Program-made: the position numbers and the translations under genes
NCBI RefSeq assembly: GCF_000270245.1
Contig: NC_015635.1
Span: 3,658,001 to 3,722,000 of the forward strand
Reading direction: 5' to 3'
Source of the DNA: Microlunatus phosphovorus NM-1
GTDB lineage: Bacteria; Actinomycetota; Actinomycetes; Propionibacteriales; Propionibacteriaceae
Length of the DNA: 64,000 nt
Shown: positions 9,288-41,427 of the stretch, one piece after another
How the letters are laid out: every line of letters begins with the position of its first letter
Position numbering within the stretch: the stretch's first letter is position 1
The notes under the pieces: model-generated
Databases searched by the model: none
What the model was told of the DNA's origin: nothing
What the model saw: the letters and a program-made list of their open reading frames with translations, nothing else

Positions 9288-9361
9288 AACAACGACCGTA
9301 GGTCCCGCGGGTGGTGCGGACGTCTTGCGCTGCGGGGCCACAGACGACCACGCGGACGGCC
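9288..9361 (-). repeat. single-locus copy of the 52-base repeat (about 1.4 units) after era
   Basis: 9288-9339 is a diverged unit of the 52-base repeat seen at 37.4 and 39.8 kb, in the same register; 9340-9361 starts a second unit. Shared segments on the plus strand include ACGTCTTGCGC and GGGGCCACAgACGACC. It fills the space between the era stop (9364) and the DUF2252 start, and relative to era it has the same orientation as the other two arrays have to their upstream genes. Nothing else was seen in 9136-9287. Confidence 0.65.
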
Positions 9362-9363
9362 GG

Positions 9364-10314
9364 CTAGAAGCCGAGTCGGTTGAGGTGCTTGGCGTCGCGC
9401 TGCCACTCCTTGAGCACCTTGACCTTCAGGTCCAGGTAGACCGGGGTGCCGAGCAGCGCTTCGATCTGCTGTCGCGAGGCGGCACCGATCTCACGGAGAC
9501 GGCTGCCACGGTGGCCGATCACGATGCCCTTCTGGGAATCCCGCTCGACGATCATGGTCGCGTACACGTCGAGCAGCGGCTTGTTCTCCGGTCGCCCTTC
9601 GCGCAGACCCATCTCCTCGACCTGCACGGTGATGGAGTGCGGCAGCTCGTCGCGGACGCCTTCCAGCGCCGCCTCGCGGATCAGCTCGGCGACCAGGGTC
9701 TCCTCCGGCTCGTCGGTGATCTCGCCGTCCGGATAGAGCATCGGGCCCTCGGGCAGCAGCGCCACCAGCTCATCGGCGAGCACGTCCAACTGCTCGCCCT
9801 GGGTCGCCGACACCGGCACGATCGAACTCCAGGAAACCCCGAGAGTCTCCTCCAGAGCGGCGATCGCCAACAGGTGCTGCGCCATCCGATCCGGGCTGAC
9901 CAGGTCGGACTTGGTGGCGATCGCGACCAGCTTGGGCCGTTTCGGCAGGGCGGCGATCTCCCCCACCAGATAGGTGTCGCCGGGGCCGATCTTCTGGCTG
10001 GCAGGCAGACAGACGCCCACCACATCGACCTCGGTCCAGGTGCCGCGGACCAGGTCGTTCAACCGCTCGCCCAGCAGAGTACGAGGCTTGTGCAGCCCGG
10101 GTGTGTCGATCAACACCAGCTGTGCATCCGGCCGATGCACGATGCCGCGAATGGCGTGCCGCGTGGTCTGCGGCTTGGACGAGGCGATCGCGACCTTGCG
10201 GCCCACCAGCGCATTGGTGAGCGTGGACTTGCCCGCATTGGGCCGACCGACGAAGCACGCGAAGCCCGATCGGAATCCTTCCTGCGGCGTGGGCGACAAG
10301 ACGCCGTCGGTCAC
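9364..10314 (-). CDS. era: GTPase Era
   Basis: 316 aa. GTPase domain: G1 GRPNAGKS (residues 23-30), switch region KPQTTRHAI, DTPGLHKP (G3), TKSDLV (G4) and VSATQG (G5). The C-terminal KH domain carries GHRGSRLREIGAASRQQIEALL. Era binds the 3' end of 16S rRNA during 30S maturation. GTG 10314 overlaps the stop of the cytidine-deaminase-like gene (GTGA). It is the last gene of the phoH-ybeY-CNNM operon, as in other actinobacteria. Confidence 0.97.
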   Translation of the reverse strand: MTDGVLSPTPQEGFRSGFACFVGRPNAGKSTLTNALVGRKVAIASSKPQTTRHAIRGIVHRPDAQLVLIDTPGLHKPRTLLGERLNDLVRGTWTEVDVVGVCLPASQKIGPGDTYLVGEIAALPKRPKLVAIATKSDLVSPDRMAQHLLAIAALEETLGVSWSSIVPVSATQGEQLDVLADELVALLPEGPMLYPDGEITDEPEETLVAELIREAALEGVRDELPHSITVQVEEMGLREGRPENKPLLDVYATMIVERDSQKGIVIGHRGSRLREIGAASRQQIEALLGTPVYLDLKVKVLKEWQRDAKHLNRLGF

Positions 10315-35227: not shown

Positions 35228-35851
35228 ATGAAGGATGCCGTCGACCGGCTGACTCCGCTGGGAGTCATGGTGCTCGCACTGTTGCGCGAGGGCGACATGC
35301 ACCCGTACGAGATGCTGCGACTGATGCGCCAGCGGCACCACGATCGCCTGGTCGCCATCACCAACGGCACGATGTATCACACCGTGGGGCGGCTGGAGAA
35401 GGTCGGACTGCTCGGCGAGGTCGGTGTCGACCGCGATGGCAACCGACCCGAGCGCACCACGTACACCCTCACCGAAGCCGGCCGCGCGATCGTCAGTGAG
35501 TGGGTACGTCGCGAACTCGTCCGCATCGACCGCCCAGCCGAGTTCCGGGTGGCGCTGGCCGAGGCCCACAACCTGGACCGGCTCGAGGTCGCGGAGCTCT
35601 TGCGCCGTCGCCGCGACGCGCTCGCCGAGGCCCACCAGCTGTATCGCACCGGTCGCGACAAGTCTCGCGCCCTCGGGACACCCGAGCAGTTCCTGATCGA
35701 GGTGGAGCGCTCGGAGTTGCTGCTGGAGGCCGAGTTGCACTGGATCGACACCCTGATCGACCGCCTCGAGCGGCACACCCTGCCGTGGGGTGTCGCCGAG
35801 ATCCCCGACTCACATCGCCACCACCGAGAACGAGAGGCCATCCGGCCATGA
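35228..35851 (+). CDS. PadR-family transcriptional regulator
   Basis: 207 aa. The winged helix is LTPLGVMVLALLREGDMHPYEMLRLMRQRHHD, then TNGTMYHTVGRLEKVGLL and the wing RPERTTYTLTEAGRA; the C-terminal Vir_act_alpha_C helices mediate dimer formation. ATG 35228 starts just before the conserved core; GTG 35216 is an alternative. The stop overlaps the start of the MFS gene (ATGA), the classic self-regulated drug-efflux pair. Confidence 0.9.
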   Translation: MKDAVDRLTPLGVMVLALLREGDMHPYEMLRLMRQRHHDRLVAITNGTMYHTVGRLEKVGLLGEVGVDRDGNRPERTTYTLTEAGRAIVSEWVRRELVRIDRPAEFRVALAEAHNLDRLEVAELLRRRRDALAEAHQLYRTGRDKSRALGTPEQFLIEVERSELLLEAELHWIDTLIDRLERHTLPWGVAEIPDSHRHHREREAIRP

Positions 35852-37392
35852 CCGACCCCACCACCACAACCCCGACCACCGCAACCACACACAAGAACCC
35901 CTGGCCGGCGCTGTGGGCGCTGGTCATCGGCTTCTTCATGATCTTGGTCGACACGACGATCGTCTCGGTGGCGAATCCGGCCATCAAGGCCGCGCTCGAC
36001 CCGAACACCAACAATCTCGACAACGTGGTCTGGGTCACCAGCGCCTATCTGCTCAGCTATGCCGTGCCATTGTTGATCACCGGCCGGCTCGGCGACCGGT
36101 TCGGACCGAAGAACATCTATCTCATCGGTCTCGCCATCTTCACCCTTGCCTCGCTCGGCTGCGGGTTGTCTGCCTCGCTCGGCGCGCTGGTCGCGATGCG
36201 CGCGGTCCAAGGTCTCGGTGCCTCGCTGATGACCCCGCAGACGATGGCTGTCATCACCCGCACCTTTCCACCGAACCGACGCGGCGCCGCCATGGGACTC
36301 TGGGGCGCGACGGCCGGAGTGGCGACACTGGTCGGCCCGCTCGCGGGCGGTCTGCTGGTGGACGGCTTCGGCTGGGAGTGGATCTTCTTCGTCAATCTTC
36401 CGGTCGGCGTGATCGGCTTCGTGCTGGCCTGGATCCTCGTGCCCAAGCTGCCGACCCATCCGCATCGCTTCGACGTCCTCGGCGTCCTGCTCAGCGCGCT
36501 CGCCCTGTTCCTCATCGTCTTCGGCCTGCAAGAGGGCGAGGCCTACGACTGGGGCACGATCTGGGGTCCGATCACTGTCTGGGGCATGATCATCGCCGGG
36601 GTCGTCGTCCTGGTGCTGTTCGTCTGGGCACAGTCTCGGACCAAGCGGGAGCCGCTCGTGCCGCTGGAGCTGTTCGGTGACAGGAACTTCTCGATCTCGA
36701 ACCTGGCGATCGCGACCGTGGGTTTCACCGTCACCAGCATGTCGCTGCCGTTGATGTTCTTCATCCAGCTCGCCATCGGACTCACGCCGACTCGCGCTGC
36801 CCTGCTGATGATCCCGATGGCGGTGATCTCGGGGGTGCTCGCCCCCTTCGCCGGCCGGCTGCTCGATCGGACAGATCCACGATTCCTGCTCGTGCCGGGG
36901 CTGCTGCTCACTTCGCTCTCGCTGTTCTGGTACGCGTGGCTGATGAAACCCGACACGCCCGTGTGGATGTTCCTGTTGCCGTCGGCCCTGATGGGCCTGG
37001 GCAACGCCGGAATGTGGGGTCCGCTGGCGACCATCGCCACCCGGAACCTGCCGCCGCGACAGGCCGGCGCCGGGGCCGGCATCTACAACACCACCCGCAC
37101 CATGGGCTCCGTCATCGGCTCCGCGGCGATCGCCGCCTTCATGCAGAGCCGGCTGGTGGCGAACCTGCCGGGAGCCGCAGAGCACAGCGGCGGCTTCGGC
37201 CAAGGTGCCCTCCCCGCATTCGTGGTCGACGGATTCTCCACCGCAATGTCCCAAGCGGTGTTGCTGCCGGCCTGCGTGCTGCTGATCGGCGTCGTGGCCG
37301 TGCTGTTCCTCCGCCGCCCGAAAGCTTCATCGACAGCGAACTGGCACGCCGCTCACGCCGCTCAGGGTGGTTCGGGTGGTCGACTGCGATAG
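35848..37392 (+). CDS. MFS drug transporter, DHA2 family (14 helices)
   Basis: 514 aa. Typical DHA2 features: FFMILVDTTIVSVANPAIKAAL in helix 1, GRLGDRFGPKNIYLIG in the loop after helix 2, RAVQGLGASLMTPQTMAVI and WGATAGVATLVGPLAGG. It probably exports hydrophobic cations or antibiotics by proton antiport; the substrate is unknown. The last ten residues (QGGSGGRLR region) are encoded by a copied 3' end of the neighbouring HNH gene, so the original C-terminus has been replaced. Coupled to padR by ATGA. Confidence 0.9.
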   Translation: MTDPTTTTPTTATTHKNPWPALWALVIGFFMILVDTTIVSVANPAIKAALDPNTNNLDNVVWVTSAYLLSYAVPLLITGRLGDRFGPKNIYLIGLAIFTLASLGCGLSASLGALVAMRAVQGLGASLMTPQTMAVITRTFPPNRRGAAMGLWGATAGVATLVGPLAGGLLVDGFGWEWIFFVNLPVGVIGFVLAWILVPKLPTHPHRFDVLGVLLSALALFLIVFGLQEGEAYDWGTIWGPITVWGMIIAGVVVLVLFVWAQSRTKREPLVPLELFGDRNFSISNLAIATVGFTVTSMSLPLMFFIQLAIGLTPTRAALLMIPMAVISGVLAPFAGRLLDRTDPRFLLVPGLLLTSLSLFWYAWLMKPDTPVWMFLLPSALMGLGNAGMWGPLATIATRNLPPRQAGAGAGIYNTTRTMGSVIGSAAIAAFMQSRLVANLPGAAEHSGGFGQGALPAFVVDGFSTAMSQAVLLPACVLLIGVVAVLFLRRPKASSTANWHAAHAAQGGSGGRLR

Positions 37393-37409
37393 TGGTGTCC
37401 GGTCGGAGT
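37361..37409 (-). repeat. copied 3' end of the DUF222/HNH gene
   Basis: 37361-37409 matches 38280-38328, the last codons and stop of the HNH gene, with about five differences over 49 bases and in the same orientation. On the minus strand it still reads TPTGHHYRSRPPEPP followed by a stop, against TPTGHHYRSRPPQPP in the intact gene. It provides the final codons and stop of the MFS gene on the other strand. Confidence 0.75.
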
Positions 37410-37422
37410 GGTGACCGCTTTT

Positions 37423-37630
37423 GGCCCGCGGGCGTCACACGTACGGGCGTTATGCGTCACGGCCGGTCGTTCGTGGCCCGCGGGCGCGAACCGTACTCCC
37501 GGCACGCCCAGCCGCCGATCGTCTGCGGCCCACAGGCGCAAGACGTACTTCCGGTCCACTCGACTTGCGGCCGCCTGCGGCCCGGCGGCGCCAAACACGC
37601 TCGTCTTGAGGCTCGGGCTGGGTCTTCGGG
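37423..37630 (+). repeat. tandem array 1 of the 52-base repeat (4 units)
   Basis: Units start with GGCCC at 37423, 37475, 37527 and 37579, exactly 52 bases apart; similarity falls in the fourth. The core is GGCCCGCGGGCGCGAACCGTAC, i.e. a GCCC-NN-GGGC palindrome then a CGTAC box (given in parts: GGCCCGCGGGCG, GAACCGTAC). There are no spacers. The array follows the MFS stop by 30 bases and runs opposite to array 2. The rest of 37631-37752 shows nothing recognisable. Confidence 0.85.
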
Positions 37631-37752
37631 CATTGATGCAGCCACATCCCAGCCGTGAACCAGCCACCGCACCCGAGAGTTCGCCCTGAGATTCGGATGA
37701 TCAGATCCATCGCGAACTCGAGGCGGACGCATCCCACAACCGCTGACGCTCC

Positions 37753-38190
37753 TCACATGAGCGCTTCGACAGCACTCGCCAGCTCCGAGGGGGAACGGCG
37801 GCCGTCCAACTCGACACCCGCACCCTGTCGTAGCAATGGCTCGATCTCGACCAGGTACTTGCGAATCTCGGCCTGTTGTTCTGCCGAACGACCGTACGGG
37901 TTGCTCGTCCGAGTCCCCACCCGCTCAATCAGCACTTCGACCGGAGCGCTGAGCAACACGACATGCTCGAACCGGTCATAGAAACGGCCTTGGTTCTCGA
38001 CGGTCCCCGATACCACCACATCGTGGTGACTAGCCAGAAGATCACTCATCCGCAGCTCGTCCCAACGAGCGTCCAGTAACTTCCAGCCGTCGTAGTCCGT
38101 ATCCACGGTCAGATGCCCACGCCGACGCAACTCTTCGAGCAGCGTCGACTTCCCAGCGCCAGACATGCCGGTGATGAGGATGCGAGCCAC
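37753..38190 (-). CDS. P-loop nucleotide-kinase-like protein
   Basis: 145 aa. Walker A GMSGAGKSTLLEEL (8-21) directly after the first strand, then DTDYDGWKLLD, a Walker-B-like strand VVVSGTVENQGRFYDRF and an Arg-rich lid (RVGTRTSNPYGRSAEQQAEIRKYL). The layout is that of small kinases (adenylate, shikimate or gluconate type) annotated as AAA-family ATPases in actinobacteria. The substrate is unknown. GTG 38190 follows GGTGGAG. It lies between the two 52-base arrays, just downstream of the HNH gene. Confidence 0.75.
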   Translation of the reverse strand: MARILITGMSGAGKSTLLEELRRRGHLTVDTDYDGWKLLDARWDELRMSDLLASHHDVVVSGTVENQGRFYDRFEHVVLLSAPVEVLIERVGTRTSNPYGRSAEQQAEIRKYLVEIEPLLRQGAGVELDGRRSPSELASAVEALM

Positions 38191-38280
38191 TCACTCCACC
38201 TCTGCCATGACCGTCACACTGGAACCCACGCTGGACACAGTCTCACATCCACCACGCGGCTTCGCCGGGCTTGGCGCGGC

Positions 38281-39666
38281 TCAGGGTGGTTGGGGTGGTC
38301 GGCTGCGGTAGTGGTGCCCGGTCGGGGTGACGATCTCCACGGTGTGGGTGTTGGTGTCGACGACTCGGACTGTCCAGCCGGGCATCTCGCGGATGTAGTT
38401 GCCGCGTTCACACACCCCACGTCCGTTGGTCGCGGTGCTGGGTCCGCCGTCGGTGTGACGGTGGATGTGGTCGAGGTGCCGGATCGGCGCCCCACAGAAG
38501 GGGTCGCGGCAGACTTGGTCGCGGCAGCGGATCAGATGGGCAAGCCAACTGCTGAACCGACGCTTGCGCTTGTCCGCGTCGACGATCAACTGGCCGCCAT
38601 CGGGGGTGGGTCGGGTGAACAACCGGCGCCACCAGCACCTCGCCTCGGCATCTTTGATCAACTGACGGATCAGGTCGGCAGGGAGCACGTCGGTGCCGAT
38701 GATCTCGGCGGGTCGTGGATCGTTCGGATCGAGCAGGGTGCCCAGCGGCATGATCACCCCGACCTCGAAGCCGGTGTCGTCGGCGGCTTCTTGGCCGGTC
38801 AACCGGGCGACCAGGGTGTCGGCCATGATCTGACCCCGCGACCGTTGATCACCAGCCGCTTTCGCCGATTTGGCGGCGGCATCCAGGGCGGCGTAGCAGG
38901 CGACCCCTTGCTCCACCGGCAGCAGGCCGGTGAGCAGACTCATCGTGTCCGGCGCCGGCCGCAACGTCACCCGGCGGTCCTTGCGTGCTTTCCTCGCTCG
39001 TTCGGTCGCGGCGACCGGATCCGCCTGATAGGCGAGTCGCTTCGCCGTGGTTTCGGCTCGCCGGGATCCCATCGACCCCAACTCCTTGCCCGCCAACTCA
39101 GCATCCAACCTGCTCCGGGTGGCCCGATCGAGATGCGAGAACTGGCCGACGATCAGGCGGGCCGTCCAGCCGCCGATCTCCCCGACAGCGAGCAGGTCCA
39201 GCAGGAGGGGCATATCGAGCACCAGATCCCGGGCGACATGCAACCTGCGGGATCCCTCCGACGGCGACACTTTGCACGCCAACGCGATCTGCTCACCGAT
39301 CCCGGCACCGATCTTGCTCGGATGCACCCCAAGACGCAGCTGCTCAGCCGACTGGGACTGCGCGAAGGCGACCATCTCCACCGCCTTCACCGCCTCCAGA
39401 CTCGCCTGCAAGCGTTCACACACCGCGATCCGATCAATCCGCGCCGCATCCCCGGCCAGACCCTGATCCATACCCCGGGCCGACACCAGGCCGTGCAGCC
39501 AGTCCAACGTCTCATCCAACCGAACCGTCACACCATCAGCCGCCGCCGCAGTCGTTGGCGTGTCCTCGGTGGCAGCGGCATCGTCGGGCGCAGCAGTATC
39601 GTCAGGCGCAGCAGTGTCGGGCAGGTCGATCCCCTCGACCGCCTCCAACACCGCCGCTGCACTCAT
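38281..39666 (-). CDS. DUF222/HNH endonuclease domain protein (13E12 repeat family)
   Basis: 461 aa. An Ala/Asp/Pro-rich start (TAAPDDTAAPDDAAATED) precedes the DUF222 domain (about 60-330) and a C-terminal HNH motif: CRDPFCGAPIRHLDHI, HRHTDGGPSTATNGRGVCERGN. This is the family of mycobacterial REP13E12, usually present in several copies per genome and prone to recombination. ATG 39666 follows TACCGT by 7 bases (leaderless); ATG 39672 is close by. It is flanked by two inverted 52-base arrays, and a piece of its 3' end lies in the MFS gene. Confidence 0.88.
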   Translation of the reverse strand: MSAAAVLEAVEGIDLPDTAAPDDTAAPDDAAATEDTPTTAAAADGVTVRLDETLDWLHGLVSARGMDQGLAGDAARIDRIAVCERLQASLEAVKAVEMVAFAQSQSAEQLRLGVHPSKIGAGIGEQIALACKVSPSEGSRRLHVARDLVLDMPLLLDLLAVGEIGGWTARLIVGQFSHLDRATRSRLDAELAGKELGSMGSRRAETTAKRLAYQADPVAATERARKARKDRRVTLRPAPDTMSLLTGLLPVEQGVACYAALDAAAKSAKAAGDQRSRGQIMADTLVARLTGQEAADDTGFEVGVIMPLGTLLDPNDPRPAEIIGTDVLPADLIRQLIKDAEARCWWRRLFTRPTPDGGQLIVDADKRKRRFSSWLAHLIRCRDQVCRDPFCGAPIRHLDHIHRHTDGGPSTATNGRGVCERGNYIREMPGWTVRVVDTNTHTVEIVTPTGHHYRSRPPQPP

Positions 39667-39828
39667 ACCCATGACGGTAGAGCAGACCACTGACAATTTC
39701 GGCTCTATGTTCGACTCAAACGCCTCATCTGACCTGAGGATTCGCTATGAGATTCGACTCCGCGAGACCTGCTGTACAGATCCGGCCACGGCCTCCCTGC
39801 CGGCCCGCGCATCTGACGCCCACGGGCC

Positions 39829-40160
39829 ACCAACGTTCGCGAGTCAGGTGTCGCCCACCTACGTCTTGCGCCCACGGTCCACAAACGACCACAAACCAGG
39901 CGGGCGCCGCGTACGTCTTGCGCCCACGGGCCACAAACGACCGCGGGCCAGGCGGGCGCCGCGTACGTCTTGCGCCCACGGGCCACAAACCACCGCGAAC
40001 CAAGCGTGCAACGCGTACGCCTTGCGCCCACGGGCCACAAACCACCGCGAACCAGGCGGCACCCGGGTACGTTTCGCGCCCACGGGCCACAAACGACCGC
40101 GAACCAGGCGGCACCCGGGTACGTTTCGCGCCCACGGGCCACAAACGACCGCGAACCAGG
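39829..40160 (-). repeat. tandem array 2 of the 52-base repeat (6 units plus 20 bases)
   Basis: Units begin at 39829, 39881, 39933, 39985, 40037 and 40089, with a partial one at 40141-40160, all exactly 52 bases long and without spacers. 40037-40088 and 40089-40140 differ at one base. Plus-strand core: TTGCGCCCACGGGCC then ACAAACGACCGCG. It fills the gap between the hemW stop (40177) and the HNH start. Since 52 is not a multiple of 3 the array cannot be a coding repeat in one frame. Bases 39697-39828 show no feature. Confidence 0.92.
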
Positions 40161-40176
40161 CAAGGCAAAGGCAGAG

Positions 40177-41427
40177 TCAGTCCACCAACTCGCGTACGAC
40201 GGCATCGGCCAGCAGCCGCCCAGTCAGCGTCAATTTGAGCCGATCGTCAGCCACTGTCACCAGCCCACGCACGCCGAGATCACCAACCCGTCCCCGGCCG
40301 CGTGCCGAAAGGCGATCCAGCGGCATCCCCTCCGCCAGCCGGATCTCCAGCAGCACCTGCTCCAGCCGGCGGTCGTCAGCGGTCAAGATCTCCCGCGCCT
40401 GGGCCGGGGACTCCCCTGCCCCCAGCCGAGTCGCGTACGCGGCCGGATGCTTGACGTTCCACCACCGGGTGCCGCCGACATGGCTGTGGGCGCCGGGTCC
40501 GATGCCCCACCAGTGATCACCACGCCAGTAGCCCAGGTTGTGCCGGCAGACCGCGTCGGCCCGGGCCGCCCAGTTCGACACCTCGTACGCGTGAAAACCC
40601 TCGCCAGTCAACACTTCCTCAGCCAACAGGTACTTGTCGGCGAGGTCGTCGTCATCCGGCAACGGCAGCTCACCACGCCGCACCCGGGCCGCCAGCTTGG
40701 TGCCCTCCTCCACCACCAGGGCGTACGCGCTCACGTGGTCAGGATCGGCGCCGAGCGCCACGTCCAGACTGTGCCGCCAGTCGGTCAGTGTCTCCCCCGG
40801 TGTGCCGTAGATCAGATCCAGGCTGACCTGGTCGAAGCCCGCGGCCCGCGCCTCCGCCACCGCGGCGATCGGCCGGCCCGGCGAGTGCACCCGGTCCAAG
40901 GTGGCGAGCACGTGCGAGACGGCGGACTGCATGCCATACGAGATCCGCGTAAACCCGCCCGCCCGCAGTTCCGCCAGGGAGGCCGGCGTGACCGACTCGG
41001 GATTCGCCTCGGTGGTCACCTCGGCGTCGGTGGCCAGCCCGAACACGACGCGGATCCGGGCGAGCAGCTTGACCAGGTCCGAGGCCGCCAGCAGCGTCGG
41101 CGTCCCGCCACCGACGAACACGGTCGACACTTCGGGTGCGTACGACCCCAGCACTCGTGCCGCGAGATCGATCTCGGCCAGTGCCGCATCGAGGTACGCA
41201 TCACCCGTCTCACCGAGATCTGACGAGACCTGCAGCTCTGCCACGGCGGAGCCGGTTCTCAGTTCACTCGGCGTATAGGTGTTGAAGTCGCAATAGCCGC
41301 AGCGCGTTCGGCAGAACGGCACGTGCAGATAGATGCCCAGCGGCCGGTCCCCGACCTCCAGCAGCGACGCTCCGGGAAGCGCTCCGTTGACGGGCGCCGG
41401 GTCACCGGGAGGCAGTGCAGAGGGCAT
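40177..41427 (-). CDS. hemW: radical SAM protein HemW (coproporphyrinogen-III-oxidase-like)
   Basis: 416 aa. The cluster motif CRTRCGYC (CxxxCxxC) lies in IYLHVPFCRTRCGYCDFNTY, then VFVGGGTPTLL, TTEANPESV and GMQSAV; the C-terminal HemN_C part is present. HemW binds haem and acts as a haem chaperone; true HemN enzymes carry extra N-terminal residues not seen here. ATG 41427 follows TATTCT (41436-41441) by 8 bases. In related genomes hemW lies between lepA and hrcA, as here. Confidence 0.93.
   Translation of the reverse strand: MPSALPPGDPAPVNGALPGASLLEVGDRPLGIYLHVPFCRTRCGYCDFNTYTPSELRTGSAVAELQVSSDLGETGDAYLDAALAEIDLAARVLGSYAPEVSTVFVGGGTPTLLAASDLVKLLARIRVVFGLATDAEVTTEANPESVTPASLAELRAGGFTRISYGMQSAVSHVLATLDRVHSPGRPIAAVAEARAAGFDQVSLDLIYGTPGETLTDWRHSLDVALGADPDHVSAYALVVEEGTKLAARVRRGELPLPDDDDLADKYLLAEEVLTGEGFHAYEVSNWAARADAVCRHNLGYWRGDHWWGIGPGAHSHVGGTRWWNVKHPAAYATRLGAGESPAQAREILTADDRRLEQVLLEIRLAEGMPLDRLSARGRGRVGDLGVRGLVTVADDRLKLTLTGRLLADAVVRELVD

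Follow-up and report, generated by a model that had tools for sequence, protein, structure and literature searches.

A family of 52-bp-pitch palindromic repeat arrays in Microlunatus phosphovorus and a candidate nuclease partner encoded between them

REP elements are short, palindromic, intergenic and lineage-specific repeats that favour convergent and unidirectional gaps near the 3' ends of genes, according to PMC3733652. The same source describes GTAG REPs with a partner gene flanked by repeats and CGTC REPs without a dedicated transposase, and among the CGTC elements HH dimers are predominant and HT dimers negligible. It also describes E. coli REPs as reportedly targeted by gyrase, and CRISPRs as evenly spaced, partly palindromic repeats (PMC3733652). 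Our literature search, whose coverage of subscription journals was thin, returned no prior account of the 52-bp repeat family studied here, nor of DUF559 proteins with palindromic or inverted repeats. Mycobacterial interspersed repetitive units (MIRU) are intergenic actinobacterial repeats, arranged in tandem with a unit length of about 50 bp and in a fixed orientation to adjacent genes.

The analysed stretch of M. phosphovorus NM-1 DNA (the window, 64,000 nucleotides) contains three loci of one repeat family, listed here with their neighbouring genes.

9318..9350, minus strand: single core of the 52-bp family, profile score 36, 13 bp past the stop of the Era-type gene
9364..10314, minus strand: Era-type GTPase gene, neighbour of the single core (PF01926 and PF07650, GTPase and KH)
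35848..37392, plus strand: MFS transporter gene, neighbour of array 1 (PF07690)
37412..37600, plus strand: array 1, four cores at spacing 52 by profile (37412-37444, 37464-37496, 37516-37548, 37568-37600)
39807..40151, minus strand: array 2, seven cores at spacing 52 by profile (39807-39839, 39859-39891, 39911-39943, 39963-39995, 40015-40047, 40067-40099, 40119-40151)
40177..41427, minus strand: radical SAM / HemW-type gene, neighbour of array 2 (PF04055; PF06969 below cut-off)

An earlier note on this DNA had reported an exact 52-base periodicity in two arrays, and the cores listed above confirm it. Array 1 and the single core were located by profile search, and Tandem Repeats Finder gave a 52-base period at 39817-40161, in array 2. 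The third locus, described in the note as about 1.4 units at 9288-9361, amounts to one full core. The neighbours it had named as MFS, hemW and era genes have compatible MFS, radical-SAM and GTPase plus KH domains. A 22-base pattern matched nine times in the window against 0.21 expected. Each of the three loci starts 13-25 bases past the stop of the gene lying upstream of it and runs in the direction of that gene; array 1 lies in a convergent gap, 19 bp past the MFS stop, and array 2 starts 25 bp past the HemW-type stop. A GCCC-NN-GGGC palindrome, attributed to every unit by the note, is found in many units, and core positions 16-18 vary (GGCCCGCGGGC, GGCCCGGCGGC, GGCCCCGCGGC). The other strand of the 3' end of the MFS gene (37345-37413) carries a piece that resembles the C-terminus of a DUF222 protein whose gene lies at 38281-39696 (PTGHHYRSRPPEPP vs. 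PTGHHYRSRPPQPP).

A genome-wide search for the consensus, proposed in the note, revealed a large family. With a strand-competitive, strand-specific profile that assigns each core to one strand, we counted at least 402 copies of a 33-bp core in at least 102 arrays; the census covered about 794 kb of fetched stretches including the window, so both counts are lower bounds for the genome. The reversed control of the profile gave 2 positions in the same stretches. Over the whole genome of 5,683,123 bases, the 22-base pattern had 345 matches with up to three mismatches (33 for the reversed pattern), and a slightly stricter 22-base pattern had 214 with up to two mismatches (1 for the reversed pattern). 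Two cores were the commonest array size (29 of 102), and a core of opposite orientation occurred inside a single array of the 102.

Alignment of first and last units showed that conservation begins sharply at the first base of CGRTCGTYTGTGGCCCGNGGGCGCRARACGTAC and ends after its last base. Cores are parted by a weakly conserved 19-base spacer, so that an array has the form core-(spacer-core)n and starts and finishes with whole cores. Same-strand neighbours were spaced exactly 52 bp apart in 255 of 299 cases. Among the 74 most diverged neighbours (core identity <70%, spacing ≤70), 82% were spaced exactly 52 bp and 97% within 50-54 bp. This distance is close to five helical turns, and we infer that the pitch is under selection. 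Core identity was 0.787 within arrays (neighbouring cores) and 0.715 between them; for spacers the values were 0.644 and 0.458, with a random expectation of 0.312. Direct repeats of 8 bp or more in the flanks, sought as target-site duplications, were found in 0 of 102 arrays (1.9 expected), a test too coarse for duplications of 2-5 bp. Arrays of six loci (L082, L095, L097, L111, L121, and L130) contain higher-order repeats that span two units, about 104 bp. Longer upstream or downstream flanks are common to the arrays of L089, L102, L128, L129, and L130, and to those of L074, L089, and L102, as if these lay inside a larger repeat.

Dyad symmetry is evident in the core, whose reverse complement scored -8 bits in register, compared with -61 for shuffled cores and 36 for the forward strand, and the plain count of self-complementary pairs was modestly raised (8.05 of 15 vs. 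6.81 shuffled). The covariation test suggested by the earlier note showed no compensatory changes: across 361 distinct cores the paired fraction was 0.576, vs. 0.577 after shuffling. With one core per array (n = 98) the values were 0.806 and 0.800, the excess sitting in the adjacent central pair. RNA folding of 11 window stretches was no better than that of shuffles (z from +0.56 to -1.88), and Rfam gave no family above gathering score for 37300-40300, with one sub-threshold match. Because the dyad comes without covariation and without a folding excess, the symmetry suggests a dimer-bound site on DNA and not a hairpin in RNA.

Gene context came not from curated annotation but from a gene caller based on codon usage, for which these loci served as training set. 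Leaving aside one core on the edge of a locus and three singletons that fall within genes (scores 10-13), 98 arrays were classifiable: 35 lay in convergent, 49 in tandem, and 14 in divergent gaps. Core-free gaps of at least 60 bp in the same loci numbered 33, 170, and 83, respectively. Arrays were thus enriched in convergent gaps (odds ratio 4.3, p = 4e-7) and depleted in divergent ones (odds ratio 0.41, p = 0.004). Tabulating distances and orientations, as the note had recommended, brought out a real tendency towards 3' ends: of the 119 array edges that face a stop, 36 were within 30 bp of it, and of the 77 that face a start none came that close. It did not bring out the claimed rule that the repeats are always oriented away from an upstream stop codon. 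In tandem gaps 33 arrays were antisense and 16 sense (binomial p = 0.02 against a fixed sense orientation), and the fixed orientation in the window was a small-sample accident. No replichore orientation bias was evident (first half +22/-24, second half +31/-24, with the origin assumed at position 1). As described, MIRU share with these arrays the tandem intergenic arrangement, a unit length of about 50 bp, and an actinobacterial host; the arrays differ in this free orientation and in a unit made of dyad core plus spacer. Among 203 flanking proteins of the genome there was no shared neighbour gene, the largest cluster having three members. One three-member cluster consists of DUF222 genes adjoining three arrays (window 38281-39696, L103:2477-3835, and L135:2471-3874).

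The core is private to its species in the collections searched. Its pattern had no match in 19 congeners and a single match, with three mismatches, in 76 further relatives; the exact pattern was absent from viral contigs, and the array had no match in plasmids or phages. BLAST of an M. phosphovorus array against eight congeners gave short matches only (best E 0.002). At least three of the 19 congeners (G005, G012, and G007) nevertheless have such arrays, with families of their own that share a pitch of 50-52 bp and have other cores. G005 is the nearest congener by HemW (79% identity). Its core, GCGATTGCTCGCAAACGTCG, was matched 37 times on 16 contigs, many neighbouring matches being exactly 52 apart, and not once in the reversed control; the same pattern gave 7 single matches in five other congeners, which is the control level. 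In G012 a third core, with the pattern ACATCGCANCNGGTGTTACCNAATCGCC, had 14 matches (0 in the control) and neighbours 51-52 apart. The G007 array has seven copies spaced 50-52, and its core resembles that of G012. Single-strand counts gave weak symmetry in both G005 (7.52 of 15 pairs vs. 6.74 shuffled) and G012 (7.26 vs. 6.96), as in M. phosphovorus; profiles of G005 and G012 that mix both strands overstate it.

Random stretches of congeners were also scanned at lag 52. G005 gave 3 matches in 125 kb vs. 1 at other lags not divisible by three, and one of these three G005 matches, at L260:704, looks coding and was taken as chance. G012 gave 3 in 500 kb vs. at most 2 at such lags, a narrow lead. 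One match was found in G011 at a looser threshold. Seven other congeners including G007 gave none in 100 kb each at a stricter threshold and with thin sampling; these zeros are weak evidence of absence because G007 scores zero and yet has an array elsewhere. Two further observations concern G005. A 52-spaced pair with yet another core lies between convergent genes at L268:17190-17300, and this genome may hold more than one family. At L260:3485-3626 a short tandem repeat of TGCACTGTCGATC units occupies an apparent intergenic gap.

Comparison between species was the only route by which a candidate partner gene surfaced. When 677 M. phosphovorus proteins were compared with 36 flanks of 18 arrays, 8 flanks matched, and three of these, from three species, matched the same M. 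phosphovorus protein.

C1:4433016-4433972 (genome coordinates, outside the window): candidate nuclease gene beside arrays in M. phosphovorus NM-1, protein of 318 aa, repeats on both sides

Homologous proteins of 256-340 aa with a DUF559 domain are encoded beside an array in all four species. The gene has repeats on both sides in M. phosphovorus, G005, and G012, and on one side in G007. Within M. phosphovorus, 3 of 677 genes lie between arrays, namely this gene and two others. The protein consists of an AbiEi-like N-terminal part and a DUF559/Vsr-like C-terminal part, and the fold of its C-terminal domain is probably like those of Vsr (1vsr) and of the EDxHD homing endonuclease I-Bth0305I (3r3p). 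It is probably a DNA-cutting enzyme. Differences from the Vsr and EDxHD enzymes are the free-standing gene framed by dispersed palindromes and the AbiEi-like N-terminus, and none was seen in an intron or intein. In G012 the nuclease open reading frame (L400:362-1132) is without about 80 N-terminal residues and is either shortened or has a misread start.

Relatives of the nuclease were then sought in plasmid and phage records regardless of repeats. This yielded three Arthrobacter loci, one Nonomuraea locus, one Tsukamurella locus, and one faecal 'Bacteriophage sp.' contig; the Arthrobacter and Tsukamurella proteins are distant relatives. Viral contigs held no relative of the nuclease; phages had no match to the M. 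phosphovorus nuclease and one match to an Arthrobacter nuclease. None of the Arthrobacter proteins reaches the DUF559 cut-off, and the 'Bacteriophage sp.' contig has no Pfam match; the link of both to the nuclease family comes from tblastn (29-41% identity). Palindrome-type repeats that match each other, inverted or direct, lie near both sides of the gene in the Arthrobacter loci, in Tsukamurella, and in the contig. No flanking repeats were recognised at the Nonomuraea locus. In a flank test that included a weak M. phosphovorus homologue (L099), 5 of 7 loci reached 20 of 24 matching bases between flanks, with gene limits approximate for L404, L406, and L099, the last not being an open frame over the stretch tried. 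None of 119 control genes in M. phosphovorus reached this level (p = 9e-8), and of 71 hemW loci from other genera 2 did (p = 2e-5). Adding the four array loci brought the count to 7 of 11, where G012 (19, with 330-nt flanks) and G007 (16) fall short and the flanks of L267 and L387 are partly below 230. The repeats of the three Arthrobacter loci and of Tsukamurella are dispersed (13, 13, 46, and 20 places). Among 72,556 plasmid records, a set without chromosomes, the Arthrobacter repeats occurred only in records of the same strain and the Tsukamurella repeats only in the same species. On the Arthrobacter sp. ERGS1:01 plasmid (L402), repeats with a pitch of about 31 bp precede the nuclease gene, which adjoins phosphate-transport genes. 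The association of nuclease and repeats is well supported, on few loci.

These features place the family near REP/RAYT systems, with which it shares dispersed short palindromic intergenic repeats with an in-register dyad, a bias to 3' ends, and a partner nuclease gene framed by repeats. Unlike them, it has strict head-to-tail arrays at a 52-bp pitch and no covarying stem, and the candidate partner is a DUF559-type gene whose product probably has a Vsr-like and not an HUH fold. The RAYT domain (Y1_Tnp, PF01797) was found in 0 of 20 genus genomes including M. phosphovorus, compared with 5 of 14 control genomes. We have not filed the family as REP/RAYT because RAYT is absent from the genus genomes, the arrays are head to tail at a fixed pitch, and the nuclease fold is probably different. 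Even spacing and partial palindromes are shared with CRISPR; unlike in CRISPR, the spacers are alike within and between arrays (identities above), the repeats have diverged, and there are about 100 arrays. The lack of flank direct repeats of 8 bp or more separates the arrays from transposon-derived MITEs.

With somewhat more belief than doubt, we read the arrays as REP-like DNA elements that are non-autonomous and have a Vsr-like nuclease as partner where REPs have a RAYT. Such a system would have two parts: head-to-tail copies of a 33-bp dyad core, set about five helical turns apart, and a dedicated gene for the nuclease with the same repeats around it. The nuclease would most likely bind the core of its own species and cut or nick there, and repair of the cut could seed new copies and lengthen arrays. 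Copies would persist where they are least harmful, between convergent genes and past stop codons. The nuclease and its core may change jointly between species, which would give each species its own version. The suggestion in the earlier note of a mobile minisatellite tolerating only 3' ends survives here in changed form, as a dispersed, intergenic, species-private, and 3'-biased repeat with a candidate partner nuclease and a presumed mobility. Protein binding, another idea of the note, would agree, at the level of DNA, with the dyad and with a pitch of five turns. Three points stand against a REP-like element with a nuclease partner: two other genes also lie between arrays, no target-site duplication was found, and nuclease loci are few.

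Alternatively, the arrays could be platforms for a chromosome-architecture protein or a topoisomerase, with dimers on the same DNA face five turns apart that absorb supercoils or insulate transcription at 3' ends and in convergent gaps, and with a nuclease link that is incidental or secondary. We consider this unlikely, although it agrees with the dyad without RNA covariation, the pitch held despite sequence divergence, the enrichment in convergent gaps, and the reported targeting of E. coli REPs by gyrase (PMC3733652). It leaves unexplained why the same protein family is encoded beside the arrays of different species and why palindromes surround nuclease relatives in other genera, and the sequence turnover among congeners is fast for an essential site. 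Quite unlikely, in our judgement, is a passive minisatellite, in which slippage and recombination extend chance duplications, purifying selection clears genes and promoters, and the pitch is merely inherited. The greater likeness of cores and spacers within arrays than between them and the 104-bp higher-order repeats would fit such a process, but some dispersal route is required to bring one bounded core to about 100 separate loci, whole cores stand at both ends of the arrays, other cores recur at nearly the same pitch in three congeners, and even the most diverged neighbours keep their spacing. The 3'-UTR RNA element in fixed orientation put forward in the earlier note (a terminator, processing, or stability hairpin) was rejected as highly improbable, since covariation, folding, Rfam, and orientation (antisense excess in tandem gaps, 14 arrays in divergent gaps) all speak against it, despite the position past stop codons and the sense orientation of all three window loci.

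Returning to REP-like elements with a nuclease partner, a broader proposal, to which we give an even chance, is that they form an undescribed class of actinobacterial repeats. Each lineage would have its own dispersed palindromes around a free-standing nuclease (AbiEi-like/Vsr-like) that co-evolves with them, a PD-(D/E)XK-type counterpart of REPIN/RAYT, and some Microlunatus elements would have grown into helically phased 52-bp arrays. If true, this would give palindromic repeats that lack a RAYT a partner. A non-homologous nuclease with lineage-private palindromes in several actinobacterial genera would suggest more than one origin of repeat-nuclease partnerships. Nuclease and core would be directly testable enzyme-site pairs, and the near-constant pitch under changing sequence would be a clean case for selection on helical phase.
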